DNA from: a virus
Virus record (IMG/VR): IMGVR_UViG_3300044591_000350
Span: 1-24,879 of that record
Length of the DNA: 24,879 nucleotides
Strand: one strand, 5' to 3'
The translations under genes were made by a program, and so were the position numbers. This document shows, piece after piece, positions 3,470 through 20,001 of this stretch; the first letter of the stretch is position 1; each line of letters opens with the position of its first letter. The notes beneath the pieces are model-generated. The model was not told the DNA's origin, made no database searches, and saw only the letters and a program-made list of their open reading frames with translations.

Positions 3470-3907
3470 TTAGTCGGTGGTTAAATAGATGCAGGAGAAG
3501 GTATGACGAGCGACGCCCCAGCGACGCTCTTCGTCAGGCTCGATCACATAATCCACGCTTGTCAGAAGGAGGTCGTCGCAGACGCCGCCCAGGGTCACGT
3601 CAGCCAGCACCGCGGCCTCGACCGCGGCCGAGCCCGTGTCGAAGAGGTCGTCGATGATCGTCGTGGAGCCGGCCACCTCCGCGGTAAAATACTCAACCAT
3701 CACTTGCAGCGTCCGGTACTGCGTCCGATTTGACGGCGCCAGCGTGCGGACCTCGACTTGCTCGTTGACCGCATAGACGGCGGCGGACGGGAAGCTCGTC
3801 GAGGCAAGCGTGTTGTTCCGGCCCTTGAGGAGATTCGCCGTGGGCACGACGCCGGCCTGCGTCAGCTTGAGCCCGATAGCGTTGCGGATATTGGTGCGGG
3901 TGCTCAT
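3470..3907 (-). CDS. Tail terminator-like protein, gpU position (145 aa)
   Basis: Tail terminators form the hexameric ring that stops tube growth and joins tail to head. This 145-residue protein begins MSTRTNIRNAIGLKLTQAGV, then has ANLLKGRNNTLASTSFPSAA, and ends RRWGVARHTFSCIYLTTD. The helix at the N-terminus followed by strands (QYRTLQVMVEYFTAEV) and a final beta strand is the alpha-beta pattern expected for gpU-like proteins. Its place directly before the tube gene supports the call. The ATG overlaps the TGA of the upstream gene by four bases, and GGAGA lies further upstream. A neck or tail completion role is the alternative. Confidence 0.6.
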   Translation of the reverse strand: MSTRTNIRNAIGLKLTQAGVVPTANLLKGRNNTLASTSFPSAAVYAVNEQVEVRTLAPSNRTQYRTLQVMVEYFTAEVAGSTTIIDDLFDTGSAAVEAAVLADVTLGGVCDDLLLTSVDYVIEPDEERRWGVARHTFSCIYLTTD

Positions 3908-4794
3908 CGTGGCATATTCTCCTGCACGACGCCGGCACCGCTGATGCGCGCGAATCCAAGGTTGACGGCGCGGTTGGCGAGGATGGCGTCGACTTTCTTG
4001 AGAGTAATCTTCGCGCGGAACTCCAGCGCATCATTTACGTAGCGATCAGGGTTTGGCACCTTGATGTTGGTCGCAGTGCCAGTCAGAAACGGTTTATCGC
4101 TGGTGAAATTGTGCGACTCGACGCCAGCCCGCGCCGCGTGACGACGCACCCAAGCTGGCACGCGCTGGCCGGTTGCCATAGCGGCCGCTGCAAATCCAGC
4201 CTTGGCCCAGCCAACCTTTGACTGAACCGAGTTGAGATAGCGGTCGGCGGATGCATCACTGATCCACATCTGACTTTGCACCTGCCAGCGGCCAATCGGA
4301 TTCCGGTCAACGTAGCCGATGCGTCCGTAGCGGTCTCGGTACTTCAGATGGAAGTTCCGCATCGTCGATACCGATGCGTTCTGCTGCCAGTATTTCCAGT
4401 AGATGCGAATCGTCTTGGACGTCTCCCAACCCAGACGGACGTTGACCGTTTCGGTCCGCGCTCTCTTGGGCGGAGTTACCTTTGAACTTCCGATCCTCTG
4501 GAAGATGCCGAGCGTCGTAATCTGCTTTTTGATTTTCCGCGTCCTTCCGCCGAAGAGATCCGATTTGATCGCGTATTCGCCCTGCTCCTTTGCAGCCGTA
4601 GTGAGGCCGGACTTGACCGGCTTTTTGCTCTTCCGGTGCTCGTGCTGTCCGGTCGGCGGCAGAATCATCATTATCGACCGTGCCACGTTTCCGCCCTCCT
4701 GCTTGATGACCTTGCCTAGATCGACGCGCGCCGACTGCGCCAGCCGCTCAAGCGCCAGGTCGAGCTTCCCAGAGTTTAGGGTGATGTCGATCAT
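3904..4794 (-). CDS. Tail completion / minor tail protein, gpZ or HK97 gp10-like (296 aa)
   Basis: Proteins here complete the head-proximal end of the tail. The N-terminus (ITLNSGKLDLALERLAQSAR, then LGKVIKQEGGNVARSIMMIL) is a helix pattern like HK97 gp10 / gpZ-type proteins. The middle (about residues 45-150) is very basic, with Lys/Arg clusters such as EHRKSKKPVKSG and GRTRKIKKQI, and looks like an insertion, since the protein is longer than lambda gpZ (192). The region FLTGTATNIKVPNPDRYVND near residue 240 and the helical C-terminus complete it. The start has a good AAGGTGAT Shine-Dalgarno sequence and a four-base ATGA overlap with the upstream gene. The positional argument is stronger than the sequence one. 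Confidence 0.55.
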   Translation of the reverse strand: MIDITLNSGKLDLALERLAQSARVDLGKVIKQEGGNVARSIMMILPPTGQHEHRKSKKPVKSGLTTAAKEQGEYAIKSDLFGGRTRKIKKQITTLGIFQRIGSSKVTPPKRARTETVNVRLGWETSKTIRIYWKYWQQNASVSTMRNFHLKYRDRYGRIGYVDRNPIGRWQVQSQMWISDASADRYLNSVQSKVGWAKAGFAAAAMATGQRVPAWVRRHAARAGVESHNFTSDKPFLTGTATNIKVPNPDRYVNDALEFRAKITLKKVDAILANRAVNLGFARISGAGVVQENMPR

Positions 4795-5111
4795 ATCACC
4801 TTAGCGACGTCGATCTCGCAGCCCGCGCCCTCCGCGTCGAACCGCACCTGCTCCACGAAGTAGGTTGTGCCGGCCCGCACCAGCGTCTGGCTCTGCGCCG
4901 GCGTGCCCGTGACCGATGAGGTCGTGAAGAACACGGTGAACTTCACGTCGTCCCGGCGCTGGTCCTCGAACTCGTCAAAAAGGTTCCGGCTCGAAGACCA
5001 GACGCCGGTGATGGTGCTGCCGAGGTAAGAGAACGTGATGCCGGCTTGCTCCAAGATGGCGCCCTGATCGAGCGCCAGCTGCACGGGATCGAAGTCGCGG
5101 ACTGCGGCCAT
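4791..5111 (-). CDS. Head-tail attachment protein, gpFII position (106 aa)
   Basis: The ATG at 5111 is chosen because the protein then begins MAAVRDFDPVQLALDQGAIL and sits two bases after the TAA of the glycosyltransferase gene; a longer in-frame start would overlap that gene by about 110 bases. The remaining 106 residues are beta-rich (GITFSYLGSTITGVWSSSRN, VKFTVFFTTSS, LVRAGTTYFVEQVRFDAEGA), close in length to lambda gpFII (117). In lambda-like order this small head-tail joining protein follows the capsid genes. It is here separated from the capsid gene by the HNH and glycosylation genes, indicating that those were inserted into an ancestral capsid-to-connector junction. No Shine-Dalgarno sequence is evident. 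Confidence 0.6.
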   Translation of the reverse strand: MAAVRDFDPVQLALDQGAILEQAGITFSYLGSTITGVWSSSRNLFDEFEDQRRDDVKFTVFFTTSSVTGTPAQSQTLVRAGTTYFVEQVRFDAEGAGCEIDVAKVI

Positions 5112-5113
5112 AC

Positions 5114-5827
5114 TTAATCGCCAACTGTCACAACGCGCGAGGCCGGCGAGAAGGCGTCGTCCTGCGCGACGCCAGAGCTTACGTGCCAGAACTCCTTCCG
5201 CACGGCGCCGGCGATGATGCACGGGGATGAGTTGATGGTGAACATCTCCTCGGCGTCGCGGATGATCCGCGGCAAGTGCGCCGGGGACTTGGCCCGCAGG
5301 ATCATCGATTGCGGCACGCGCCAGGTCAGGAGCTTTGCCTCCTGCGCCTCGTCCGCGAGGAACACAATCGGCCGCTTGGCGACCCGCCGGCAGGCTTCCA
5401 TTAGCGCCCCGGCGTGGTGCTGCTTGCCCTGCGAGTAGCCGAACGGCGCCAGCAGGCAGATCTCGCGGCTGAAGCCGTAGTCCTGCAGCGGCGGCTGCTC
5501 ATCGATCAGGTCGAACTCCGGCCGCTGGTTCAGCTGGGCGAACTCGGGGAAAAGGCCGAAGACGAAGTCGCCCCAGGGTTTCCCGCTCGCGCGGTATTCA
5601 TCGTAGCGGTGCGGCCAGATCTCAAGCTCGAGCACGCGGCCGAAGCGCATCTTGTCGCGCTGCTTCGGATCCGAGGGCCGCACGTAGCTGACGCAGGAAA
5701 AGAGCCCCCAATACTGGGCGAAGCACTCGACGTAGACCGAATGACCTTGGCCGGCCAGATGCCGCGCAATCGGAAGGATGCGGATGATGTCGCCGAGGCG
5801 CTGGTGGTAGACGATGCAGATTCTCAC
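5114..5827 (-). CDS. GT9-like glycosyltransferase (heptosyltransferase-type fold, 237 aa)
   Basis: The N-terminus MRICIVYHQRLGDIIRILPI, followed by ARHLAGQGHSVYVECFAQYW, matches the first beta-alpha-beta unit of the heptosyltransferase-type GT-B family, including the characteristic 'GD....P' turn (G12, D13, P19). The C-terminal half has LLAPFGYSQGKQHHAG and later MFTINSSPCIIAGAVRKEFW, where GT9 enzymes bind the nucleotide sugar and show a conserved Ser/Pro loop. At 237 residues it is shorter than cellular GT9 enzymes (about 320-350). It starts with GTG in a GTGA overlap with the methyltransferase gene, so the two are coupled. The sugar and acceptor cannot be predicted. It could be an inactive remnant, but the frame is intact. 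Confidence 0.68.
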   Translation of the reverse strand: MRICIVYHQRLGDIIRILPIARHLAGQGHSVYVECFAQYWGLFSCVSYVRPSDPKQRDKMRFGRVLELEIWPHRYDEYRASGKPWGDFVFGLFPEFAQLNQRPEFDLIDEQPPLQDYGFSREICLLAPFGYSQGKQHHAGALMEACRRVAKRPIVFLADEAQEAKLLTWRVPQSMILRAKSPAHLPRIIRDAEEMFTINSSPCIIAGAVRKEFWHVSSGVAQDDAFSPASRVVTVGD

Positions 5828-6462
5828 GCCTTAAAGACCATCGTGAGAATGTTCGGCCAGTCACCATCATTCTTGCGGACCGCGTCCTCGGGCGAGCCGA
5901 TGAAGACCGGACGAAGCCCGTTGATCGCCATCGCGTTTGCTAGCGTTTCCGGCGTGAAGTGCCAGAGGTGCTCGCCTGGGCGCCGGTGCTTCCAGTTGTA
6001 GAACCATTCCGCGCCGAGCGCTGGGTGATACCACGGGACCGAGACGATCGCACCATCGGCCTCGAACCGCGGCAGCTGGTCAAAGTGCTCAAGCGAGTCG
6101 AAGAACGTCAGCACCGGCCAGCGTGTCCGCTGCCACTCGGGATCCACGCGCACGAACGACGGCGCGGGATATGGGGAAACGTCGTAGCCCCAGCAATGGA
6201 CCCAAGGACTGCGATCGTTGACCGCCCGCAGGAACGCGCCGGTTCCGTAGCCGATGTCGCAGACGATAAACGCCTCTGGAAAGAAGCGACGGAACAGCGC
6301 CGCGCGGATCTCGGAGAGCTCGCGCTCGGGGTACTTCTCGTACCGCGCGACGTAGGCGTGATCGTACTGCGCGCGGATCGTGCGGTCGCGGGACATCAAC
6401 GCATCCGTCGAGTTGTGGATGCGATACTCGTAGGTGAATTGACTGCTCACGGCGTGGTCCAT
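5824..6462 (-). CDS. SAM-dependent methyltransferase (class I, 212 aa)
   Basis: Motif I is clear: VCDIGYGTGAFL at about residues 67-78, the 'D.G.GTG' loop that binds S-adenosylmethionine. An acidic residue at the end of the second strand follows (WGYDVSPYP, D94), then TFFDSLEHFDQL near 119-130, like the 'D..EH' post-motif of small-molecule or sugar methyltransferases. A C-terminal stretch (HRRPGEHLWHFTPETLANAM) resembles the 'H...F....L' segment of Methyltransf_23-like enzymes. No DNA-target motif (NPPY or PCQ) is present, so DNA methylation is not favoured. Flanking glycosyltransferases suggest a sugar or glycan substrate (inference). The ATG at 6462 overlaps the upstream gene by 16 bases. 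A GTG at 6450 would give the GTGA overlap used by neighbours and is a real alternative start. Confidence 0.78.
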   Translation of the reverse strand: MDHAVSSQFTYEYRIHNSTDALMSRDRTIRAQYDHAYVARYEKYPERELSEIRAALFRRFFPEAFIVCDIGYGTGAFLRAVNDRSPWVHCWGYDVSPYPAPSFVRVDPEWQRTRWPVLTFFDSLEHFDQLPRFEADGAIVSVPWYHPALGAEWFYNWKHRRPGEHLWHFTPETLANAMAINGLRPVFIGSPEDAVRKNDGDWPNILTMVFKA

Positions 6463-8168
6463 TTGGAGTCGGCGTCAGGGTTGCGCTGCTTGAAGAGCTC
6501 GAGGCCAGCGTCGTAACGCTCCTTCGTATTGTTGTGCTGGTAGGTCGCGTCCCAGTTCCCCTTTTTGAAGGATGGGTGCTGATGCTCGAACTTGTAGAGG
6601 TGGCGCGCGTCGATGACGACGCCGTCACGCCAGGCGCGGTGCGAGAACTCATTATCACTGAAGACCGACTCGTATCCCTCGTAGAAGAGCTCGCCGCCCT
6701 GCTGCTCGAAGCGCGCGCGCGAAAGGATCGCCATACAAAGCAGCGGGCCGGTGCGGTGACCGTCGTGGACCGCGATGACGATCGGCTCCTTCTGCAAGTC
6801 GCGATCCTCGACGAGCGACAGAAGCTTCGTGTCCCAGCCGATAGGCGGAACCCAGTCGTCGGACAGCTGCACGATCAGATCGCCGCGCGCCTTCTTGGCG
6901 GCCAGGTTCCAGGCTGCGACGCAGGAGCGCTTGTCCGAGACTACGCTCAGGAACTGCTTGCCCATCGTCACCGACTCCTTGTCGTCCGCGTCCACGGCGA
7001 AGACGTGCTCGATGCGGGTCGGATCTTGCGCGAGCCCGAGCCAAGCCTCGCGGCAAGCAACAGCCTTCGAGGTGCGGCCGCGTGTCGCGTGGACGAGCGA
7101 GATGCGCGGATGATTGCCGAGGTGAAACTGCTGCTGGAGCACGTCAGCCCGCGCTTCCATCCCAGCCAGTCGGAAGGCTCGCGCGGCCAGATCGTAGCCA
7201 GCCCAGCCGTAATACTTCGCCTCCGAGGTCCACGGCTTGTCCGCGCCGATTGGCTCGCGGTGGCGCAGCATCTCCTCGGCCCACCAGCGCGCACGCGCTC
7301 CGTCGTTCTTCTCGAAGAGCAGGAGGATGATCGCGGCGTAAGCCTCGCGGCACCACGGGAAGACGGCGTGCGCTTGCAGCGCGTAGCTCATCGCTTCGCG
7401 CGAATCGCCGCAAAGCTTGGCGAGGTTGAGCAAAGCCTCGTAGCGAAAGGACTGCTCAAGGTTCGGGAAGCTTAGAGCGATCTTGCCGAATTGCTCCGCG
7501 GCCTGCCGATTGCCGGCGCATAGGTGCTCCTGGTGGATGTAGAAATATTGCGTCGGCGTCTCCTTCACCGATTGCCCGAGGATGCGGAGATTGCGCCTGC
7601 GGTTCTCCTTCTTGACCGACTTCGGCGCGTGAACCCAGACCGGCCGCGGCCAGTCCTCGTGCTTGTCGCCGGGAAGCAGTAGGAGGTTCTCGTGGACGTC
7701 GTGGTGCCAGATGCGCCCAGCCTCGAAGGCAGAGCGGCGGATCGCGCGCTCGCGGTGCAGCTTCTTATTCGTCCCGCGGACATCATAAGGACAGCGCACC
7801 ATCAGCACCTCGGGCGCGACGGTGCGGAGGAGATCGCGGAAGTCGTGCGCCTCGTCGAGCAGATCGTCGCAGTCGGACCAGACGATCCAGTCGCCGGTTG
7901 CCTTGGCGAAGGCCGCGTTGCGGGCGCGAGCGAAAGAGTCGACGTGGTCCCACTTCTCGGCGCCGTAGCCGTTCCGGTACTCAGCCCCACGGAAGCCCTT
8001 GCCGTTCTCGCGGCACCAGGCGGCCGCCATCTCAAGGGTCGCGTCGGCCTCCTTCGCTCCGATAGCCCGCACGATGCAGAGCTCGTCGAACACAGGCGCG
8101 AAGCTCGAGAGCATCGCGATAATGTGCTCGGCCTCGTTCCCGCAGATGACGCAAAGTGAGACGCGCAT
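6447..8168 (-). CDS. Two-domain glycosyltransferase: GT2 - helical repeats - GT2-like (573 aa)
   Basis: The N-terminal domain (about residues 1-200) starts RVSLCVICGNEAEHIIAMLS, the usual GT2 'N-E-E' opening, and carries the metal-binding DxD in WSDCDDLL (D99, D101, D102). A middle section (about 200-345) is helical with TPR-like features (YFYIHQEHLCAGNRQAAEQF, LQAHAVFPWCREAYAAIILL). The C-terminal domain (from about 353, PRISLVHATRGRTSKA) is a second GT-A-like unit with HVFAVDADDKES and a DD pair in LIVQLSDDW (D437, D438), then YEGYESVFSDNEFSHRA. Two GT-A units in one chain suggest two successive sugar transfers, or one catalytic and one binding unit. The gene starts a three-gene cassette placed behind the capsid genes. 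Substrates are unknown; virion protein glycosylation is inference. Confidence 0.8.
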   Translation of the reverse strand: MRVSLCVICGNEAEHIIAMLSSFAPVFDELCIVRAIGAKEADATLEMAAAWCRENGKGFRGAEYRNGYGAEKWDHVDSFARARNAAFAKATGDWIVWSDCDDLLDEAHDFRDLLRTVAPEVLMVRCPYDVRGTNKKLHRERAIRRSAFEAGRIWHHDVHENLLLLPGDKHEDWPRPVWVHAPKSVKKENRRRNLRILGQSVKETPTQYFYIHQEHLCAGNRQAAEQFGKIALSFPNLEQSFRYEALLNLAKLCGDSREAMSYALQAHAVFPWCREAYAAIILLLFEKNDGARARWWAEEMLRHREPIGADKPWTSEAKYYGWAGYDLAARAFRLAGMEARADVLQQQFHLGNHPRISLVHATRGRTSKAVACREAWLGLAQDPTRIEHVFAVDADDKESVTMGKQFLSVVSDKRSCVAAWNLAAKKARGDLIVQLSDDWVPPIGWDTKLLSLVEDRDLQKEPIVIAVHDGHRTGPLLCMAILSRARFEQQGGELFYEGYESVFSDNEFSHRAWRDGVVIDARHLYKFEHQHPSFKKGNWDATYQHNNTKERYDAGLELFKQRNPDADSKWTTP

Positions 8169-8189: not shown

Positions 8190-8219
8190 AAGAAACCCGC
8201 GCCCCAGTTGGCGTCAGGT
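8187..8219 (-). terminator. Rho-independent terminator after the HNH gene
   Basis: On the minus strand the stem ACCTG-(A bulge)-CGCC pairs with GGCG-CGGGT around the loop AACTGG, with one G-T pair, followed by TTTCTTTTT. It starts inside the last codons of the HNH gene (stop 8216-8214). It shares the ACCTG stem start and an ACTGG loop segment with the terminator at 8898-8932. It should reduce transcription into the glycosyltransferase cassette. Confidence 0.65.
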
Positions 8220-8897
8220 CGTCATCTGCGCCAGATAAAAGTCGGCAAGACTCTCGGGCCAGAGATCGGAAGGCACGTCCTTGAAGTCCTTGTAATCCTC
8301 ACTCAGCCAGAACGGATCCGAGCTTTTGCCTAGGTTCACCGGCTCCGGCAGCACCTGCATATTCTGGTGGTGATGCCATCCGCCGTGCTTAATCGGGATG
8401 ATGTGATCGACGTGATGCTCGATGCCAGTCGCCAGCGTAAGCTGCCGTGCCTCATCGTGCATTGCGGCCTCGGCAACGAAATCGTGCGCCGGATGTAGCT
8501 GGCTGCGCTTGAGTGCGCGACGAGCCGAAGAGCTCTGCGCCCTGCGCGGCTTGTTCTCCGCGGACCACTTGCCCGTCCGCTCCTTCATCTTCAAGCGCAC
8601 GTCGGCACGTTCGGCGTAACGCTTCTTAGCGTAGGCGTTGAATCCATCGCGATACGATTGGGTCTGCCTAAGCTGACGCATCTGATTCCGCGACGCCTCC
8701 ATTCGTTTCTCAAATACAGCTTTAGGAGCCCAATGCTCGCCGTTTGCGTAGCCTGCGCCGTAGCCGCAAAAGATCAGTCCATCCTCGCGCGTCGTGCCGT
8801 TCTTTATCCTGCGATCAGGATTCGCCTTGAGCCAGGCGCGCATCTCTTCGGCGCGCTCCTTTCGCTCCTTGAATTTTGTTCCGGTCCACGGGTGCAT
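8214..8897 (-). CDS. Free-standing HNH endonuclease (227 aa)
   Basis: The C-terminal half contains a full HNH motif: EHHVDHIIPIKHGG (D164, H165), then WHHHQNMQVLPEPVN with an N at 179 and 188, then GKSSD. The zinc-finger-stabilised 'VDHI.P...GG.H...N.Q.L....N..K' pattern is standard for phage homing-type HNH nucleases. The N-terminal 120 residues are basic and helical (FKERKERAEEMRAWLKANP, then NAYAKKRYAERADVRLKMKE), consistent with DNA binding. The ATG at 8897 directly follows the T-run of the capsid terminator, and there is no Shine-Dalgarno sequence. A TTG at 8942 would run the frame through the hairpin and is less likely. Terminators on both sides and a position inside a head operon indicate a selfish insertion. 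It nicks or cuts DNA; the target is unknown. Confidence 0.85.
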   Translation of the reverse strand: MHPWTGTKFKERKERAEEMRAWLKANPDRRIKNGTTREDGLIFCGYGAGYANGEHWAPKAVFEKRMEASRNQMRQLRQTQSYRDGFNAYAKKRYAERADVRLKMKERTGKWSAENKPRRAQSSSARRALKRSQLHPAHDFVAEAAMHDEARQLTLATGIEHHVDHIIPIKHGGWHHHQNMQVLPEPVNLGKSSDPFWLSEDYKDFKDVPSDLWPESLADFYLAQMTT

Positions 8898-8913
8898 AAA
8901 AAAACCTGCACCC
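8890..8913 (-). promoter_or_regulatory. Inverted repeat that can mask the HNH start codon
   Basis: On the minus strand GGGTGCA (8913-8907) and TGCACCC (8896-8890) form a perfect 7-bp stem with a 10-base loop. The right arm covers the last two bases of the ATG (8897-8895) and the bases after it. The left arm overlaps the right arm of the upstream terminator stem, so the two hairpins cannot form together. This is an attenuator-like geometry; any regulatory effect is inference. Confidence 0.55.
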
Positions 8914-8932
8914 AGTAAAGGATGCAGGTTTT
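8898..8932 (-). terminator. Rho-independent terminator after the major capsid gene
   Basis: A perfect 10-bp stem (AAAACCTGCA at 8932-8923 with TGCAGGTTTT at 8910-8901, minus-strand sense), a 12-base loop and a run of seven T. It begins 18 bases after the capsid stop codon. It is the strongest terminator seen and would cap the capsid transcript. Confidence 0.88.
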
Positions 8933-8950
8933 GTTTACGCAAACGTTATC

Positions 8951-9916
8951 TCAACTGAATTGCGTGGCGATAAGCTGGCCGGCGTTGGTGTTGACCACCT
9001 TCTCCGCCACATAGTGCGAAGCGCGCACGATGTTGGACTTGATCGACTCGTCGCGGTAGGTGAACACGCCGACCGCGGGACCGTACTCGGACCAGTTGAG
9101 CGTGAAGCCCGCGCCGCCGCCGAAGTAGCCAGCGCCGGACTCGGTCACGGAACCGACCCAGATGTAGGTGTTCGCCCAGATGTTAGCGCTCGAGAACGCC
9201 ACGCCTTCAGCCGCGGAGTCATAGGCCGCGCGACCGATCAGCACCTCGCTCACGCCAAAGACCTCGGCCGCCGCCTGGGTGGAGGCGTTGAGGATCGTGT
9301 CGCTCGAGATGCCGGCGCCGCGGAGGCGGTTCTGGAACTTCGTGCTGGCGCGAATGCGGGTCCAGACGGGATACGGGATGACCACGCGCAGGTTGCTCGT
9401 GGACTCGCCGTTGGCGAGCAGGCGGTCAATGGCCTCCTGCACGTCCTGGCCGGCGTCGAACGTCGCCAGATTGGCGGTCGTGTAGGCGGTGCCGGAGTTG
9501 GTGCTGGTGAAGTTGCCCGTGCTGAAGATCTGCGCGGCCACGCGGAGTTCGTGAGCGAGCAGGAGCTTGCGGCGGGACAGCTTGGCGGCGACGACCTCGG
9601 CGTCGAAGAAACGCGAGACGTCGGCCGTCACGGTATCATCCACGGCCTGTTCGTACCCGTATTCCAGCGACAAGTAGGTTTCCTGCGTGAAGGAATTGGT
9701 CCCACGCGGGAAGGTGGAGTACGGGTCGCGCACCTTGACGTCCGACTTGAGCAGCTGGCCCTCCTTCAGCTTGAAGGCGGGGTACTGACCAGCGCGGACG
9801 GGGACGTTGAGGATCGGCATCACGCGCGTGCCGATCAGACCGGTCTCCCAGTCTTTGGCTTGCTCGAGAACGCCTGCGATGTCGCCACGGAAAACGGCGG
9901 CAGAATTGGTGTACAT
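8951..9916 (-). CDS. Major capsid protein (gpE-like, 321 aa)
   Basis: This 321-residue protein is coded after the decoration protein and before a strong terminator, the place of lambda gpE (341 residues), and most likely adopts the HK97 fold. Supporting segments are YPAFKLKEGQLLKSDVKV and FPRGTNSFTQETYLSLEYGY (extended-loop region), FFDAEVVAAKLSRRKLLLAH (long spine helix), ATFDAGQDVQEAIDRLLANG and LRVVIPYPVWTRIRASTKF (A-domain strands and helices), and VTESGAGYFGGGAGFTLNWS near the end. No signal or membrane segment is present. AAAGGA lies 10 bases upstream of the ATG, a weak, distant Shine-Dalgarno sequence. A scaffold is expected from the upstream protease/scaffold gene. Confidence 0.88.
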   Translation of the reverse strand: MYTNSAAVFRGDIAGVLEQAKDWETGLIGTRVMPILNVPVRAGQYPAFKLKEGQLLKSDVKVRDPYSTFPRGTNSFTQETYLSLEYGYEQAVDDTVTADVSRFFDAEVVAAKLSRRKLLLAHELRVAAQIFSTGNFTSTNSGTAYTTANLATFDAGQDVQEAIDRLLANGESTSNLRVVIPYPVWTRIRASTKFQNRLRGAGISSDTILNASTQAAAEVFGVSEVLIGRAAYDSAAEGVAFSSANIWANTYIWVGSVTESGAGYFGGGAGFTLNWSEYGPAVGVFTYRDESIKSNIVRASHYVAEKVVNTNAGQLIATQFS

Positions 9917-9941: not shown

Positions 9942-10298
9942 TTACAGGTTCTTCGGGATGAACTCGATCACCGCGGAGCCGTTGCCGCTGGCCTGAGTCG
10001 AGAGACTCTTGCCGACGGTGACGGTGCCGGTGGTGGAGACGAGGCCCGAGGCGGCGAGGTAGAGGTTGTCGCCAACGGTGACGGGAGTCCCGGTGACGGT
10101 CGCCTTCAAGGTGCCGGCGGAATGGAGGAAGCGGACGGTGACGTAATCGCCGGAGGCCGCATCGATCTGCGCGATGCCGTCGCACGCGGTCGACGTCGAG
10201 AGGCCGACGCCGCGGTTATTGGAAATCACGACGCCCTGGAAGGCGGTGATGGTGGTGTTGGCAAGGAACGTGCCGTTGCCGAGGTATTGGGTAGCCAT
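9942..10298 (-). CDS. Head decoration protein (gpD / DUF2190-like, 118 aa)
   Basis: This 118-residue beta-rich protein is encoded between the protease and the major capsid gene, like lambda gpD (110 residues). Decoration proteins bind as trimers on the expanded capsid and stabilise it after DNA packaging. The sequence has many Thr/Val/Gly strands (TFLANTTITAFQGVVISNNR, GDYVTVRFLHSAGTLKATVT, VTVGDNLYLAASGLVSTTGT) ending AVIEFIPKNL, which fits the small beta-barrel of DUF2190-type capsid cement proteins. The bases just before the ATG are CCTACA, identical to those before the capsid ATG; no Shine-Dalgarno sequence is visible. Confidence 0.78.
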   Translation of the reverse strand: MATQYLGNGTFLANTTITAFQGVVISNNRGVGLSTSTACDGIAQIDAASGDYVTVRFLHSAGTLKATVTGTPVTVGDNLYLAASGLVSTTGTVTVGKSLSTQASGNGSAVIEFIPKNL

Positions 10299-11293: not shown

Positions 11294-11548
11294 TCATCCT
11301 TTGCTTTTAACGTCTAAAGTAGCGCGGCGCTTGTATGCAGTAACGCGGACGACCTTTTTCGTAATCTCATCCCACACCGGGAATTGCGCGACCTCGACGG
11401 TCTTCGCGCGGATCGCTGGCCCGAGGAGCACGCGCACGTTGTCGACGCTGCACTCCAGCTGCTCGGCCACTTTGTCGCGCGAATCCCAGCCGGCAGGCAG
11501 CACGTAGGTCTTGCGGTTCTGCGCTTCGACTAGGGATTTCCAGTTCAC
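11294..11548 (-). CDS. Small putative winged-helix/HTH protein (84 aa)
   Basis: The protein is 84 residues, soluble and basic at the C-terminus (VTAYKRRATLDVKSKG). The segment GWDSRDKVAEQLECSVDNVR (about residues 20-39) reads as a helix-turn-helix: 'R..VAE.L.CS...VR..L' with a small residue in the turn. It is followed by two strands (VEVAQFPVWDEITKKVVRVT) that could form a wing. No family name is recalled with certainty. GTG at 11548 is used as start because it gives a GTGA overlap with the phosphoesterase stop. Between a phosphoesterase and the prohead protease its job is unclear; DNA binding is inference from the HTH-like pattern only. Confidence 0.6.
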   Translation of the reverse strand: MNWKSLVEAQNRKTYVLPAGWDSRDKVAEQLECSVDNVRVLLGPAIRAKTVEVAQFPVWDEITKKVVRVTAYKRRATLDVKSKG

Positions 11549-12495
11549 AGCTTAAGGAGCGCAGCGAAGTGCGACTCGCCCTCGATGATCGGAATGTTAA
11601 GATGCAGGAAGGCGCCGCTCTCCGCGACCAGCTGCACCGCGTAGCCGTGCGACCAATCGGTCGGCGCGGTGTGCTGCCAGAGCGGCTGGAGCTGGCAGAG
11701 GCAACCGGGATTCCACGCGCCGATGATGCCGGACGAGATCCGGCGCACGATGTTGGACTGGGCGCGGTGCGTGTGGCCGAAAACGCAGTTGCCTGAGATC
11801 TTGTCCACGGTCGCGGCCACAGCGTTCTTCGCCGTGCTCACGCCGTGAAAGAAGAAGCACTTCCCGCGCTTAATCACGCCGGGGACCGGGAGGCCGTCGT
11901 AGAACTCGCCCTGCCGGTAGTAGGAGATGCCGCGCTCCTTGAGCCCGAGCCGGAACTCCGGAGCCAGCAGGCGGCGCAAACCCTCGGCGTCCTTCTTGTG
12001 GCGCAAGACTTGCGTCACGCACCACGTTTCAACGCGGCGCTCGTGATTGCCCTCGAGGTACTCGATCTTTGCGCGCGGCGCTGCGGACTGGAGCGCGTCG
12101 AGGAAAGCCTTAGCTGCGGCAAGGTCTTCCTCGTAGGTGTAGTCCGTTTCCGCGACATAGCCCATCACGTGATGCTGCGCCAAAAACCCGCCGCAGTCTA
12201 CGTGATCGCCGAGGAGAATGATCTCCTGCGGGTCGAGCGCCTTGATGTCAGCGAGCATCGCGGCCAGCGCGGTCTTGTCGATCAGGCATCCGTGCGTATC
12301 AGGGATGACGACGCGGACGATGTCGCTGCCGGACCGGCGCCGCGTTGCGGCTGGCGCGGGCATCTTCGTCTTGCGCGCCTTGGTCGCGTTCGCGAGCGCG
12401 GACCGCGCCACCTCGAGCTCTTTACGCAGGCCCGCGACCTCGGCCTCGTACACCTTGCGGGTCTCGTCCCGCTGAACTGCGCTCCAGTCAGTCAC
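11545..12495 (-). CDS. Calcineurin-like metallophosphoesterase with coiled-coil N-terminus (316 aa)
   Basis: All metal-binding motifs of the calcineurin-like superfamily are present in order: PDTHG (D66, H68), LLGDHVD (D97, D100), EGNHE (N150, H151), FFFHG (H217) and FGHTHR (H241, H243). Residues 10-45 form a short charged helix (EVAGLRKELEVARSALANAT). Such enzymes hydrolyse phosphomono- or diesters with two metal ions; the substrate (nucleotide, cyclic nucleotide, nucleic acid or protein phosphate) cannot be told from motifs. GTG at 12495 is chosen because longer starts overlap the upstream one-TM gene extensively; the 8-base overlap then fits the compact operon. Its place next to lysis-like genes and the head protease is unusual. 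No signal peptide is seen, so it probably acts in the cytoplasm. Confidence 0.85.
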   Translation of the reverse strand: MTDWSAVQRDETRKVYEAEVAGLRKELEVARSALANATKARKTKMPAPAATRRRSGSDIVRVVIPDTHGCLIDKTALAAMLADIKALDPQEIILLGDHVDCGGFLAQHHVMGYVAETDYTYEEDLAAAKAFLDALQSAAPRAKIEYLEGNHERRVETWCVTQVLRHKKDAEGLRRLLAPEFRLGLKERGISYYRQGEFYDGLPVPGVIKRGKCFFFHGVSTAKNAVAATVDKISGNCVFGHTHRAQSNIVRRISSGIIGAWNPGCLCQLQPLWQHTAPTDWSHGYAVQLVAESGAFLHLNIPIIEGESHFAALLKL

Positions 12496-12688
12496 CCTTG
12501 CCCTCCTTAGCAGCGGCAGCGGCGGCGTCCTCGGCCTGCGCCTTTTGCCACTCGCGATGCCAGCGCCAAAAGATAAACGCCAGCGAGGCGATGCCGGTCG
12601 CGATGCCAAGCAGCGAGTTAATCTGGCCCGCGGTCACGGTGGCGACCGGAGGAGTGATAGCGGCGACGGCGTCGGCTGGCTTGATCAT
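12488..12688 (-). CDS. Small one-TM membrane protein, possible second holin or spanin-like (66 aa)
   Basis: This 66-residue protein has one strong hydrophobic segment (about residues 24-42, INSLLGIATGIASLAFIFW) followed by a charged tail (RWHREWQKAQAEDAAAAAAK). It follows the 3-TM holin-like gene after nine bases, so an accessory role in lysis (holin, antiholin or inner-membrane spanin) is plausible but unproven; no lipobox is seen. Upstream of the ATG the minus strand reads TAATCTCCTCCG, where TAA is the previous stop. There is no Shine-Dalgarno sequence. The last codons overlap the phosphoesterase start. Confidence 0.6.
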   Translation of the reverse strand: MIKPADAVAAITPPVATVTAGQINSLLGIATGIASLAFIFWRWHREWQKAQAEDAAAAAAKEGKGD

Positions 12689-13579: not shown

Positions 13580-15724
13580 TTAGTTGTTGGTGGTCTTGGC
13601 TGCGAGGTAGTAGATGGTGCCGCCGATATCCACCTCGATGGTGCGGTTGGGCGACGTAGGCGAGACGGTGGCGACGGTGCCGAGCTTCCAAGCAGCGGCG
13701 GTACCACCGGAAGGAGCGGCGGTCTTAATCGATCCACCCAAGGTGGTATTCCTGCTGGCATCAACCGAAAGCGCCGAAGCTGCGCCGGTTTCGTCCCAAA
13801 TATGAAAACCGACTCCAGCCGTTGAGCCCGAAGAACTTGAAGTTACGGAATACGAACGACCGCTAGTGCCGTTATTGACCAACCGCATCTGGCAATCTGT
13901 GCCAGTTGTCGTGCCGCGGAATGCAATCGCACCAGCAAAGTTTACATCGACAATCGCTCCCGCATAGATCGCCCCCGCCACCCCCACGCCCCCGCTCACC
14001 ACCAGCGCACCGGAGGAGGTGTTGTTGGAGGCGGTGGTATTGGTTAAGCGAGTCGTGCCCGCATTGAGGAGTCCGACATTGGTGCTAGACGCTCCAGACT
14101 GAGCGGCGATATCGATGCCGTATGCGTTGGTAACCCCAGTCGCTCCAATATTCTCGATTCGGAGTCCGGTCGCGGTAGTGACCGTCGAACCAGAGCCGAG
14201 GGTCGGCGTGTAGGCCCGCAAGACGAATGCGCTGCCCACCGTACTTGACGCAGCCGTCCGCATCGAGAAGAACCCAGCATCAGCGGTTGATGCGTTAATA
14301 GTGGGCGATGAGTAAACGCCATACTGGAACGATCCAGTAGATAGAGTCGGCTGACTGTTAACGCCAATGGTGGCATCGGTTGCGGCTCCAATGCCAACCG
14401 TGCCGCCAATGTTCACGTTGCCCCCCACCCCCAGCCCGCCACTCGTCCCGTTGCCCACCACCAGCGCGCCGGACGAGGTGGTGTTGGAGGCGGTGGTAAG
14501 AGGGATTGCGATTTTGGTGGAACTAGCACCAATCCATTGAGAATAGCTACCATCGCCAATGGAGATGGCATCTAACGTATCGTCGGTCCCAGCCGCCCAA
14601 ATGTTGCCACGCAGCGTTCCGGCACTACCAAGGAATTGTGTGCCTATGAACCAACCGCCTGAGTTGGCTTGGATGGAGATATTGCCTAAACTAGCGTTAA
14701 ATCGGATAGGCCGTCCACCAGATGGGGTGATGCTAAACTGTGGAGCCGTACCGTAGGTAGAAACCATCGAACCCGCTGCGGCGAACGAGCCGTTAGAGGT
14801 CAGCGTCCCGCCCACCGTGGCGTTGCTCCCGCTCACCGTGACGGCGTTGCTCCAGGACGCCGTGCTGCCATTCGTCGTGAGGAGGCGCCCGCTGTTGCTC
14901 GTCTGACTCGGCAGCCCAGCGACCGGCTGCGCGCCCCAGCTGACGGTGCCGCTCCCGTCCGTGAGCAGCATATACTGCGTGGAGCCCGCTTGATCGGGCA
15001 GCAGCGCGTTAAGCGCCGCAACGCGCGTCGTCTGGCCGGTGCCGCCTTGATTGATCTGCGCCACGCCAGCGAGCGAGCCGAAGTCGCCCACGCCTCCCGC
15101 GCCGCCACCGCCACGGCTGGCGAGCGTCTGCCATTGATTGCTGTTCTTGCTCGGCTTCTCGGTCACGCCATCGACGGTCGCGATGTAGCTCGAGCCCAGC
15201 CACGAGACGACGTCGAGGCGGTTGTAGGTCTCGCCATCAATGAACGTGCCGCGCGGATTCAGCGAGGCGCCCGCAGCGCCGGCAGGCCCAGGGATCAGTT
15301 GGAGCTTCTTGGCCTCCTCCTTCGCCGCGAACTCGACCCGCTCCAGCTGCTGCCCGAACTGCGTCACGAGCGAGCCCAGCTGCGATTGCAGCGCCACGAT
15401 CTCGGAGCGCAGCGCCTCCGCGTCCGCGCCCGCCTTGGCCGCGTTGGTCTCGTCGGCCTTCTTGAGCTCGAGCGCGATGACGCCCACTTGCTCGTCGACC
15501 GCCTTCCGCATCTCCTCCACGCGAGCGGAGAGCGCGCCCAGGTTGTTGTCGAGGACGTGAAATTGCAGCGCCTTGATGCCGGACAGCGCCGCGGAGAGCG
15601 CGTTCGTCGCGGCCTCCAGCGGGCGCGCCTGAGTCGAGAACTCGGCCTCGAGCTTCTCCGTCTTCGTTTTGACTTCGCCCAGCGTCTCCGCGAGGACAAG
15701 CAGTTCGTCGTATTCGGGGATCAT
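13580..15724 (-). CDS. Tail fibre-like / receptor-binding protein B (714 aa)
   Basis: Domains in order: a coiled coil (residues 1-140, ELLVLAETLGEVKTKTEKLE onward), a short collagen-like piece (GPAGAAGAS, 146-154), a WLGSSYIATVDGV module (about 158-204, like the small carbohydrate-binding-type modules of phage fibres), a Gly-rich hinge (RGGGGAGGVG), LPSQTSNSGRLLTTNG, then a long Ser/Thr/Gly-rich beta region to IGGTIYYLAAKTTNN. The low-complexity beta repeats and lack of enzyme motifs fit a trimeric adhesin. It shares architecture with the 801-residue protein at 17594-19999. Two 43-base repeats encode the TTASN.TSSGALVV unit twice. The ATG overlaps the TGA of the 80-residue coiled-coil gene. 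Its location between portal and protease leaves open whether it is a tail, neck or head fibre. Confidence 0.75.
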   Translation of the reverse strand: MIPEYDELLVLAETLGEVKTKTEKLEAEFSTQARPLEAATNALSAALSGIKALQFHVLDNNLGALSARVEEMRKAVDEQVGVIALELKKADETNAAKAGADAEALRSEIVALQSQLGSLVTQFGQQLERVEFAAKEEAKKLQLIPGPAGAAGASLNPRGTFIDGETYNRLDVVSWLGSSYIATVDGVTEKPSKNSNQWQTLASRGGGGAGGVGDFGSLAGVAQINQGGTGQTTRVAALNALLPDQAGSTQYMLLTDGSGTVSWGAQPVAGLPSQTSNSGRLLTTNGSTASWSNAVTVSGSNATVGGTLTSNGSFAAAGSMVSTYGTAPQFSITPSGGRPIRFNASLGNISIQANSGGWFIGTQFLGSAGTLRGNIWAAGTDDTLDAISIGDGSYSQWIGASSTKIAIPLTTASNTTSSGALVVGNGTSGGLGVGGNVNIGGTVGIGAATDATIGVNSQPTLSTGSFQYGVYSSPTINASTADAGFFSMRTAASSTVGSAFVLRAYTPTLGSGSTVTTATGLRIENIGATGVTNAYGIDIAAQSGASSTNVGLLNAGTTRLTNTTASNNTSSGALVVSGGVGVAGAIYAGAIVDVNFAGAIAFRGTTTGTDCQMRLVNNGTSGRSYSVTSSSSGSTAGVGFHIWDETGAASALSVDASRNTTLGGSIKTAAPSGGTAAAWKLGTVATVSPTSPNRTIEVDIGGTIYYLAAKTTNN
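13997..14039. repeat. 43-base repeat in fibre gene B, copy 1
   Basis: This stretch matches 14456-14498 with three mismatches in 43 bases and encodes the TTASN.TSSGALVV unit of the fibre. The copies are in the same reading frame, about 460 bases apart, so recombination between them would remove an in-frame block. Confidence 0.85.
14456..14498. repeat. 43-base repeat in fibre gene B, copy 2
   Basis: Second copy of the direct repeat at 13997-14039 (three mismatches). The surrounding C-rich bases on the plus strand are also similar, corresponding to Gly-rich linkers on the coding strand. Confidence 0.85.
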
Positions 15725-15966
15725 CAGATTTTGGTTTTGAGTTGTTCCACTTCCGCCCGCAAGGCCGCGAGCTCCTGAGCGAGAACGTGCGCCTGCATCG
15801 CAGAGATGCCGGTTAGTGCCGCGTTCAGCGCCGCGGTCGCGGCCTCCAGCGCCTTGGCCTGCGTGCCGAATTCGGCCTCGACCTTATCCGCGCGCGCCTT
15901 CACGTCGCCCAGCGTTTCGGCCAAGGCAAGGATCTCGTCGGTGCGCGTGCGGGAGGCGAGCCTCAT
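15724..15966 (-). CDS. Small coiled-coil protein, paralogue of the fibre B N-terminus (80 aa)
   Basis: The whole protein is a predicted coiled coil (TDEILALAETLGDVKARADK through EAATAALNAALTGISAMQAH to AALRAEVEQLKTKI). It aligns without gaps to the first 70 or so residues of the fibre coded directly downstream, at roughly half identity; the DNA is also clearly similar. It therefore arose by tandem duplication of the fibre start. Its TGA overlaps the fibre ATG (TGATG), so the two are translationally coupled. It could be a remnant of a lost fibre or a working partner in a coiled-coil bundle (inference). No Shine-Dalgarno sequence is visible at its ATG. Confidence 0.75.
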   Translation of the reverse strand: MRLASRTRTDEILALAETLGDVKARADKVEAEFGTQAKALEAATAALNAALTGISAMQAHVLAQELAALRAEVEQLKTKI

Positions 15967-15994
15967 CGTCGTATTTGTCGCTTGTGTCTAAAGG

Positions 15995-16315
15995 CTACAG
16001 CGCAGGCTCAGGCTCCGGCTCAACAGGATCAGGCCCATCCGGCGTGGGCTCAGGCACGGGCGCAGGCACGCAGTCCTGATAGCGCATATGGCACTCGGTG
16101 AAGAAAGGATCGTCCGGGTCATCCGGCCCCATCCCGCACCACGTATCGTAGTCGGCGTCGGACAGGAGCGCATCCTGCCTTCCCAGCAAGTTGCCGGTGG
16201 CAGACCAGTAGGCGATCTCCGACACGATGTTGTGGTTGACCACCCGGTGATTGGTGCAGGAGAAGGCCGTGGCCTCAGCCAGTAAACCCTGTTTTGGAAC
16301 GATGTTGACGCGCAT
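15995..16315 (-). CDS. Small acidic Pro-rich protein in the adhesin block (106 aa)
   Basis: The protein has a globular N-terminal 75 residues with four Cys (TAFSCTNHRVVNHNIVSEIA, DADYDTWCGMGPDDPDDPFF, TECHMRYQDC) and a Pro/Glu-rich tail (PAPVPEPTPDGPDPVEPEPE). No signal peptide is present. The tail is likely unstructured. It lies five bases after the beta-helix gene and 28 bases before the coiled-coil gene, so it belongs to the adhesin operon. Possible roles are a fibre assembly factor or small virion protein; no family is recognised. Confidence 0.65.
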   Translation of the reverse strand: MRVNIVPKQGLLAEATAFSCTNHRVVNHNIVSEIAYWSATGNLLGRQDALLSDADYDTWCGMGPDDPDDPFFTECHMRYQDCVPAPVPEPTPDGPDPVEPEPEPAL

Positions 16316-16320
16316 AGTGA

Positions 16321-17592
16321 TTAGCCGATGAAGGCGAAGGAGCCGCCAGCGGAGGAGGCGGGAGGCTCCTCGGAGACGCCGAAGCCCATTCCCCAGATGG
16401 TAGCCGTGTTTTTGATGCGGTAGTCCCCGCCTGCCACGTTCACCAGTTCCGAGGCATCGTCGCTGTCGGTGGTGTAGTTGACCTCAGTCGTCAGCGGATT
16501 GCCCGCGAGGGCGTTGAAATTCCCGGACGTTCCATTATCGCGCAGGCGATTGCTTTGAATGACGGCATATCCCTGACTCTGCCCGTCAATTCCTGCGGTA
16601 GTAGATCCGGCGATGTAGTTGCCGAAAATCAAATTGCCCGAAGTCTGGCCCGCATTGCTTGAGAGTCGGATTCCATATCCATTCCCGTGTGCGGTATTTT
16701 GGAAGATATGCCGAATTGAACCGGGGCTTGCAGTCATCAACAATCCCGAGCCGACATTGTTAATGAATGTCGATTTAACGACAACCACGTTCGATCCACT
16801 TGTATTTATTCCGTGGCGATTGCCGGACGTGGCGGACGCATTACCTATGATTCGGGAGTTGAAAATAAACGCACTGGCAGTGGCGTGAGAATAACTGCTT
16901 CCACTCATTTCCACCACGCAATTTTCCAGTGCTCCGCTGGCAACGGCCACCGAACTGGTGTTCGACGCCGAGTTGAGCACGTAGCACCAAGACAGTTGGC
17001 AATCGGAAACCACAAAACCGGTGGTCGTTGACCCACTTGCGGTGAATTTAATCAGCCGCATAATGAAATTAACACTACCGGTAATTGTCCGTATGTTGGT
17101 GGTAGTATTAAGTACCGGAAATGAGGAGGTGTCGTATGCTGCTTGATCGCTCGTCCAATTACCATCTGGAACGCTCAATGCAACGCCACTGGAATCGCAT
17201 CCGAGAAATGTTAGTGGTCGTGCTAGTGACGGAGCGCCGCTTGTGAACGATCCTGTAGTCAGCGTATTAGTTATTGTGTAGGTCTTATTCCCTTCGATAA
17301 GGCACAGCAGGGAATCTGCGCCACTAGTGAAATTGAATGCGGTGATAACCGCAGACCACGCGCTTCCGGCATAAAGTGCGGCACGCTTATTCCACGTTGT
17401 CCCATCGCACTCCTCCCAATACGTCGCGTAGTTTGCTCCCGTGATTGGCCTATCCGCAGCGGCGGACGTATGATTGAGGATGCACCTCCAGTTCTTGTTG
17501 TCAGTGCCTAGCACATAGTCGCCAACAGCGTAGGCTGTAGAGGTTACCCAAGTGGCTGCGGCTGGCTGGAAGTAACGAGTTGCGACTGCCAT
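16321..17592 (-). CDS. Beta-helix tailspike-like protein (423 aa)
   Basis: Residues 10-60 form a small module (WVTSTAYAVGDYVLGTDNKN, ATYWEECDGTTWNK) like the carbohydrate-binding-type modules of phage spikes. From about 95 to 370 the chain shows the short strand-turn rhythm of a right-handed parallel beta-helix: repeated Asn-rich turns and buried Ile/Val/Phe (SAFIFNSRIIGNASATSGNR, NVVVVKSTFINNVGSGLLMT, GNLIFGNYIAGSTTAGIDGQ, YAVIQSNRLRDNGTSGNF). Such folds occur in pectate-lyase-like proteins and tailspikes that bind or cut surface polysaccharide. No catalytic residues can be assigned, so enzymatic activity is open. The ATG lies one base after the TAA of the preceding fibre gene. Confidence 0.75.
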   Translation of the reverse strand: MAVATRYFQPAAATWVTSTAYAVGDYVLGTDNKNWRCILNHTSAAADRPITGANYATYWEECDGTTWNKRAALYAGSAWSAVITAFNFTSGADSLLCLIEGNKTYTITNTLTTGSFTSGAPSLARPLTFLGCDSSGVALSVPDGNWTSDQAAYDTSSFPVLNTTTNIRTITGSVNFIMRLIKFTASGSTTTGFVVSDCQLSWCYVLNSASNTSSVAVASGALENCVVEMSGSSYSHATASAFIFNSRIIGNASATSGNRHGINTSGSNVVVVKSTFINNVGSGLLMTASPGSIRHIFQNTAHGNGYGIRLSSNAGQTSGNLIFGNYIAGSTTAGIDGQSQGYAVIQSNRLRDNGTSGNFNALAGNPLTTEVNYTTDSDDASELVNVAGGDYRIKNTATIWGMGFGVSEEPPASSAGGSFAFIG

Positions 17593-17593
17593 C

Positions 17594-19999: not shown

Positions 20000-20001
20000 A
20001 G

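Follow-up and report, generated by a model that had tools for sequence, protein, structure and literature searches.

The analysed window is one entire IMG/VR record, IMGVR_UViG_3300044591_000350, a viral sequence of 24,879 bases. Its recognisable phage genes all lie on the minus strand in a lambda-like order, and among them stands a cassette of three overlapping genes for predicted glycosyltransferases (GT) and a methyltransferase (MT). We refer to the largest product as GT573, and to the two smaller genes as occupants of a slot behind it.
6447..8168, minus strand: GT573, 573 amino acids (aa), two-GT-A glycosyltransferase with a TPR-like middle
5824..6462, minus strand: class I S-adenosylmethionine (SAM) methyltransferase, 212 aa, slot occupant 1
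5114..5827, minus strand: short GT-B enzyme with a GT9 (heptosyltransferase-like) fold, 237 aa, slot occupant 2
The original prediction, made by a model from the sequence, had placed three minus-strand open reading frames (ORFs) at exactly these coordinates. They overlap by 16 nucleotides (nt; GT573 and methyltransferase) and by 4 nt (methyltransferase and GT9-like gene).

The description of GT573 as two GT-A domains around a TPR-like middle was also confirmed. Pfam detects GT2 twice (3e-12), and PHROGs divides the protein likewise (phrog_13126 at residues 1-342, 2.5e-18; phrog_14945 at residues 354-553, 1.6e-11). An AlphaFold model built from 20 sequences with 61-77 percent identity to the query (predicted local distance difference test, pLDDT, 88; predicted template modelling score, pTM, 0.77) consists of a GT-A domain at 1-180, a helical TPR-like domain at 183-348 and a second GT-A domain at 355-560, the mutual placement of the domains being less certain than the domains themselves. 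The first-site motif DCDD (99-102) is invariant in 126 of 126 distinct sequences, and conservation of the TPR part across the same set equals that of the first catalytic domain. At the second site, DxDD (393-396), SDDW (436-439) and H529 are invariant in 77 of 77 long forms. This second active site is lost in 49 of the 126 sequences, short forms of about 461 aa in which SDDW is changed to EDGM or DDGM and H529 is deleted.

The fold search that had been proposed for the 573-aa protein returned glycosyltransferase folds. SunS was the best Foldseek match (4.5e-12, spanning about 370 alignment columns), followed by two-site heparosan/chondroitin synthases, ThuS and TarS, and comparable GT2-type matches came from uncultured caudoviruses and giant viruses in a viral structure library. 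When 20 relatives were combined in a profile, GmaR was the best match (2.2e-9), followed by ThuS (0.0017) and SunS (0.0085). SunS and ThuS are peptide S-glycosyltransferases, and SunS comes from the SPbeta prophage. GmaR of Listeria glycosylates flagellin, which its TPR region is proposed to recognise (PMC9638930). Like these three enzymes, GT573 has a GT2-type GT-A domain with an acidic motif, a helical TPR-like domain after it and a relation at the profile level. Unlike them, it ends in another complete GT-A domain, is encoded in a phage structural operon and has no adjacent peptide or flagellin gene. By modelled fold and profile, the N-terminal GT-A and TPR-like parts resemble protein glycosyltransferases, and we propose that GT573 may be an initiating protein glycosyltransferase plus a second sugar transferase.

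We compared the placement of GT573 among relatives using the following flanking features.
9942..10298, minus strand: cement/decoration protein, candidate acceptor, 25 percent Ser plus Thr (Pfam Phage_cement_2, 1.4e-7)
8951..9916, minus strand: major capsid protein, candidate acceptor (phrog_1005, 9.1e-29)
8214..8942, minus strand: HNH endonuclease gene, endonuclease VII-like (phrog_1035, 3.5e-11)
4791..5111, minus strand: FII-like head-tail connector, which closes the slot (phrog_82, 2.4e-4)
IMG/VR holds 286 tblastn-confirmed relatives of GT573. Among 134 loci with a relative of the capsid gene and at least 400 nt of downstream sequence, 133 carry GT573 no more than 1.5 kb behind the capsid gene, directly or after an HNH gene, which is optional and present in only some relatives. 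In the sole exception (L123), the contig ends inside the HNH gene, 736 nt downstream of the capsid gene. Conversely, wherever a GT573 copy has 1.3 kb or more of upstream DNA (179 copies), the same capsid gene lies upstream of it. Both tallies include some contigs repeatedly, under different locus ids, and as the loci are the best 80 per scan, more distant capsid relatives that lack GT573 may exist. Because essentially every relative carries it, GT573 belongs to the core genes of the phage lineage and is not a recent insertion, and the earlier view of an inserted cassette does not hold.

Among close relatives, the ratio of nonsynonymous to synonymous substitution rates (dN/dS) is 0.02-0.06 for GT573 versus 0.12-0.25 for the capsid gene. 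GT573 is thus under strong purifying selection, and the low ratio, together with conservation in more than 100 distinct phage sequences, excludes a chance ORF. Distances between GT573 sequences correlate with those of the cement protein (0.92), the tail terminator (0.90), FII (0.89) and the capsid protein (0.80). These correlations mostly reflect shared ancestry and mosaicism and were not used as evidence for the acceptor. No near homologs of GT573 or the capsid protein were found in named phages at E 1e-5, and the terminase shares only 22-27 percent identity with those of named phages.

The glycosyltransferase-methyltransferase-glycosyltransferase set had been regarded as a unit. Comparison of 131 distinct regions between GT573 and the connector gave a different result: the region is a variable slot with eight architectures, none of them empty. 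The most frequent are a short GT573 followed by a 214-aa gene (53), MT plus GT9 (50) and a small GT2 alone (10); the rarer ones are DUF5672 plus GT9 (9), MT, an extra GT and GT9 (5), GT9 alone (2) and two longer sets. Most of the contents are recognisable by Pfam as GT or MT genes. L014 and L016 have DUF5672 in place of the MT despite belonging to a 97-98 percent group. Short GT573 forms are followed by a gene of about 205-214 aa (L109 3192-3836 and 48 others), which encodes an invariant NDD motif and has no Pfam or PHROGs family match. The motif is GT-A-like, but a profile comparison gave nothing significant. Behind GT573, L171 (8735-11662) encodes a 256-aa protein that begins like a GT9 enzyme, together with an E1 dehydrogenase and a zinc alcohol dehydrogenase, which places sugar-pathway-like genes within the head-tail operon. 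A homolog of the window methyltransferase also stands in a sugar cluster of cyanophage S-SM2, beside an alcohol dehydrogenase and a transketolase-like gene.

A near-universal, strongly constrained gene among head and connector genes could also encode an essential assembly factor or structural component, with the GT fold serving as a scaffold and activity being secondary. The catalytic motif is invariant in the 126 sequences and the other slot genes are mostly recognisable enzymes, and we give this explanation the lowest standing of all those considered.

In the window, the slot holds the methyltransferase and the GT9-like gene. The former was correctly predicted to be a SAM enzyme (Pfam Methyltransf_23, 6.3e-12), and its best PDB profile matches are weak and to aminosugar N,N-dimethyltransferases (e.g., 3bxo, 2e-4). 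It has homologs in Pseudomonas phages D3 (orf13) and Psp6, and other enzymes replace it in relatives. A role as a defence protein was rejected; PADLOC gave only a weak mad2 match (6e-4), taken as generic SAM-fold similarity. We propose, from its sequence, that the methyltransferase may cap a glycan. For the second gene, the predicted GT9-like fold is borne out while membership in a sequence family is not. The AlphaFold model (pLDDT 93.5) is a two-domain GT-B, and its best Foldseek matches (3tov, 2.4e-7; WaaC, 1.4e-6; TibC, 2.3e-6) are nearly all GT9 heptosyltransferases, with template modelling (TM) scores by query of 0.6-0.67. The protein has no Pfam, NCBIfam or PHROG match, and its 20-row profile has no match to PDB sequences. 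The modelled fold suggests that it could be a third transferase.

GT573 alleles are exchanged as well. In L085 and L107, the GT573 protein is only 56 percent identical, whereas the flanking capsid and MT/GT9 genes are 89-99 percent identical; by this comparison, the GT573 allele has been replaced by recombination. In L085, L198, L199 and L171, the tail module differs directly behind the cassette, and the capsid gene and GT573 are retained. We counted this retention with the head module in favour of a virion target.

The cassette is probably a late-expressed phage system that glycosylates a virion protein, with GT573 starting the glycan and the slot enzymes extending and capping it. This is the best reading because GT573 is linked to the capsid gene, the cassette lies in the head-tail operon without membrane partners and a SunS/GmaR-like GT is combined with a variable slot; no strongly hydrophobic 19-residue segment occurs in the three cassette proteins (maximum Kyte-Doolittle value 1.56). 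The original suggestion of a protein, hence plausibly virion, target is strengthened by the resemblance to SunS, ThuS and GmaR and by the universal capsid linkage. In the first step, as fold and profile suggest, the N-terminal GT-A domain would put the first sugar on a protein held by the TPR-like domain as an acceptor clamp, with SunS, ThuS and GmaR as analogues. The C-terminal GT-A domain, given its intact motifs, would add a second sugar, and the GT9-fold transferase and methyltransferase may then extend and methyl-cap the chain. The acceptor would most likely be an abundant virion protein, either in the head (capsid or cement protein) or in the tail tube. Host nucleotide sugars would serve as donors; no nucleotide-sugar synthesis genes (PF00483) were found in 14 relatives. 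Because relatives swap both GT573 alleles and slot enzymes, the glycan would differ among otherwise near-identical phages.

Several observations weigh against a virion target. The operon location implies late expression and not a target. The likeness of GT573 to SunS and GmaR is remote (12-20 percent identity when the folds are aligned), and the Foldseek matches of GT573 also include the wall teichoic acid glycosyltransferases TarS, TarP and RmlT; a protein target is therefore favoured rather than certain. GT9 enzymes are mostly lipopolysaccharide (LPS) heptosyltransferases. Between L085 and the window, the capsid proteins are near-identical while the GT573 alleles share 56 percent identity, and tight co-evolution of capsid and GT is thus not evident. 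The host clue consists of one Betaproteobacteria contig from a metagenome-assembled genome (MAG) among GTDB genomes, and this contig may be binned free phage.

Both the GT9 fold and the teichoic acid enzymes in the fold list would fit the main rival, in which the cassette acts during infection on glycans of the host surface (LPS core, capsule or O-antigen) and thereby blocks superinfection or frees progeny from receptor debris. Variable enzyme sets suit variable host glycans, and the same role has been proposed for pelagimyophage GTs (PMC7029224). We nevertheless consider this explanation unlikely, as the cassette has no membrane partner or flippase, the best relatives of the conserved GT573 are protein and peptide GTs and the linkage of GT573 to the capsid gene is essentially universal. 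The cassette also lacks the features of serotype-converting gtr systems: its proteins have no strongly hydrophobic segments, and no tyrosine integrase was found in the viral contigs of 14 relatives, which are fragments. The lack of an integrase in these fragments and the single GTDB match, to a MAG contig, make lysogenic conversion unlikely and count against modification of host glycans.

GmaR provides a precedent for another kind of target, since it doubles as a transcriptional antirepressor in addition to glycosylating flagellin (PMC9638930). Any soluble protein could be a substrate for GT573, and the cassette might glycosylate a non-virion protein or small molecule, such as a host regulator, flagellin, pilin or a phage regulatory protein. 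This is improbable: in nearly all relatives the cassette lies in the head-tail operon, next to the genes of the phage's most abundant proteins, and a swapped multi-enzyme slot suits a surface-exposed, selected glycan better than regulation. Glycosylation of hypermodified phage DNA bases, for which GTs are known in other phages (mentioned in PMC12619734), is unlikely. No thymidylate synthase-type homolog (PF00303) was found in the incomplete 27-48 kb contigs of the 14 relatives, the cassette lies in the late structural region, and the two-GT plus TPR architecture matches protein GTs.

Virion glycosylation, the reading we prefer, has been described in mycobacteriophages Che8, Corndog and Myrna (Freeman et al. 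2023, as cited in PMC12363180 and PMC12619734). The likeness lies in phage-encoded GTs and in capsid and tail-tube proteins as targets, which for the window are proposed. The glycan was observed on virions there and is deduced from genes here, and the hosts are mycobacteria there and are suggested to be Betaproteobacteria here. By organism name, no mycobacteriophage appeared in a relaxed tblastn search of INPHARED with GT573; no direct comparison with Che8 gp110 or Corndog gp38 was made. In chlorovirus PBCV-1, a glycan with a methyl cap is built on the major capsid protein by the multi-domain GTs and methyltransferase of A064R and A111/114R, and glycan differences accompany antigenic variants (PMC7826918). 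Unlike the window phage, chloroviruses infect eukaryotic algae, carry N-glycans and have GT, GT and MT fused in one protein, and a sequence relation is not among the likenesses.

Closer arrangements occur in other phages. In D3 (orf12-orf13) and Psp6 (genes 49-50), a methyltransferase homologous to that of the window (A4 profile, 1.7e-14 and 8e-16) adjoins, likewise in the head-tail connector region, a 275-aa protein whose start is GT9-like, but no GT573 homolog was seen. For D3 orf12, the GT9-like label derives from a weak TIGR04414 match (0.02). D3 orf12 (275 aa, phrog_6804; L154 5073-6468) overlaps the orf13 methyltransferase gene. The Manatee Spring podovirus ctKR88 (MW202524) encodes a major capsid protein, a small gene, a GT2/TPR protein and two further GTs. 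Its GT2/TPR protein resembles GT573 (A1 profile, 1.6e-13; shared PHROG 13126), but the second domain is GT-B and not GT-A; the likeness covers the GT2/TPR protein and the gene placement. Given D3, Psp6 and ctKR88, the placement of the cassette is not unique. We found no literature on this lineage or gene placement, with most subscription journals outside the search. Enzymes of this kind are known. What is new is their near-universal, modular and allele-swapped arrangement within a single phage lineage.

The gene order in the window runs from terminase and portal through fibre-like proteins, a metallophosphoesterase, a protease, the cement protein, the capsid protein and the HNH gene to the three cassette genes. 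These are followed by the FII-like connector, a Z-like gene, the tail terminator, tail tube, chaperone, tape measure and distal tail protein. The predicted position between capsid and FII genes is therefore right as to the late head-tail operon, with two qualifications: the optional HNH gene intervenes, and FII membership of the connector is weak (Pfam Phage_attach 0.004, below cut-off, beside the phrog_82 match). With its start at 5111, the FII-like gene abuts the GT9-like gene without overlap. The Z/gp10-like gene (window 3904-4794 and relatives) sits between FII and the tail terminator, and its alleles are sharply distinct (97-100, 77-80 or 29-30 percent) among otherwise near-identical phages. 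The block between portal and protease (window 13580-20005) is hypervariable. It encodes proteins of fibre-like and right-handed beta-helix type, one of which matches CBM5/12 weakly; this interval is an unusual site for adhesins. From the fibres to the protease, window 11294-12609 contains the metallophosphoesterase gene and a highly conserved 84-aa gene.

Tentatively, and with less assurance than for virion glycosylation itself, we suggest that the lineage may have made this modification a core trait, with a fixed, capsid-locked initiator and constantly swapped slot enzymes, even sugar-pathway genes. If so, near-identical phages with different surface glycans would be a phage counterpart of bacterial serotype variation. 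Virion glycosylation has been demonstrated in few phages. D3 and Psp6 offer a testbed, since both have been isolated and carry a related methyltransferase in the corresponding part of the operon. A lineage with apparently obligatory, modular glycosylation would make the roles of the glycan testable (particle stability, shielding, attachment or avoidance of host defences) and would also show how phages diversify their surfaces.

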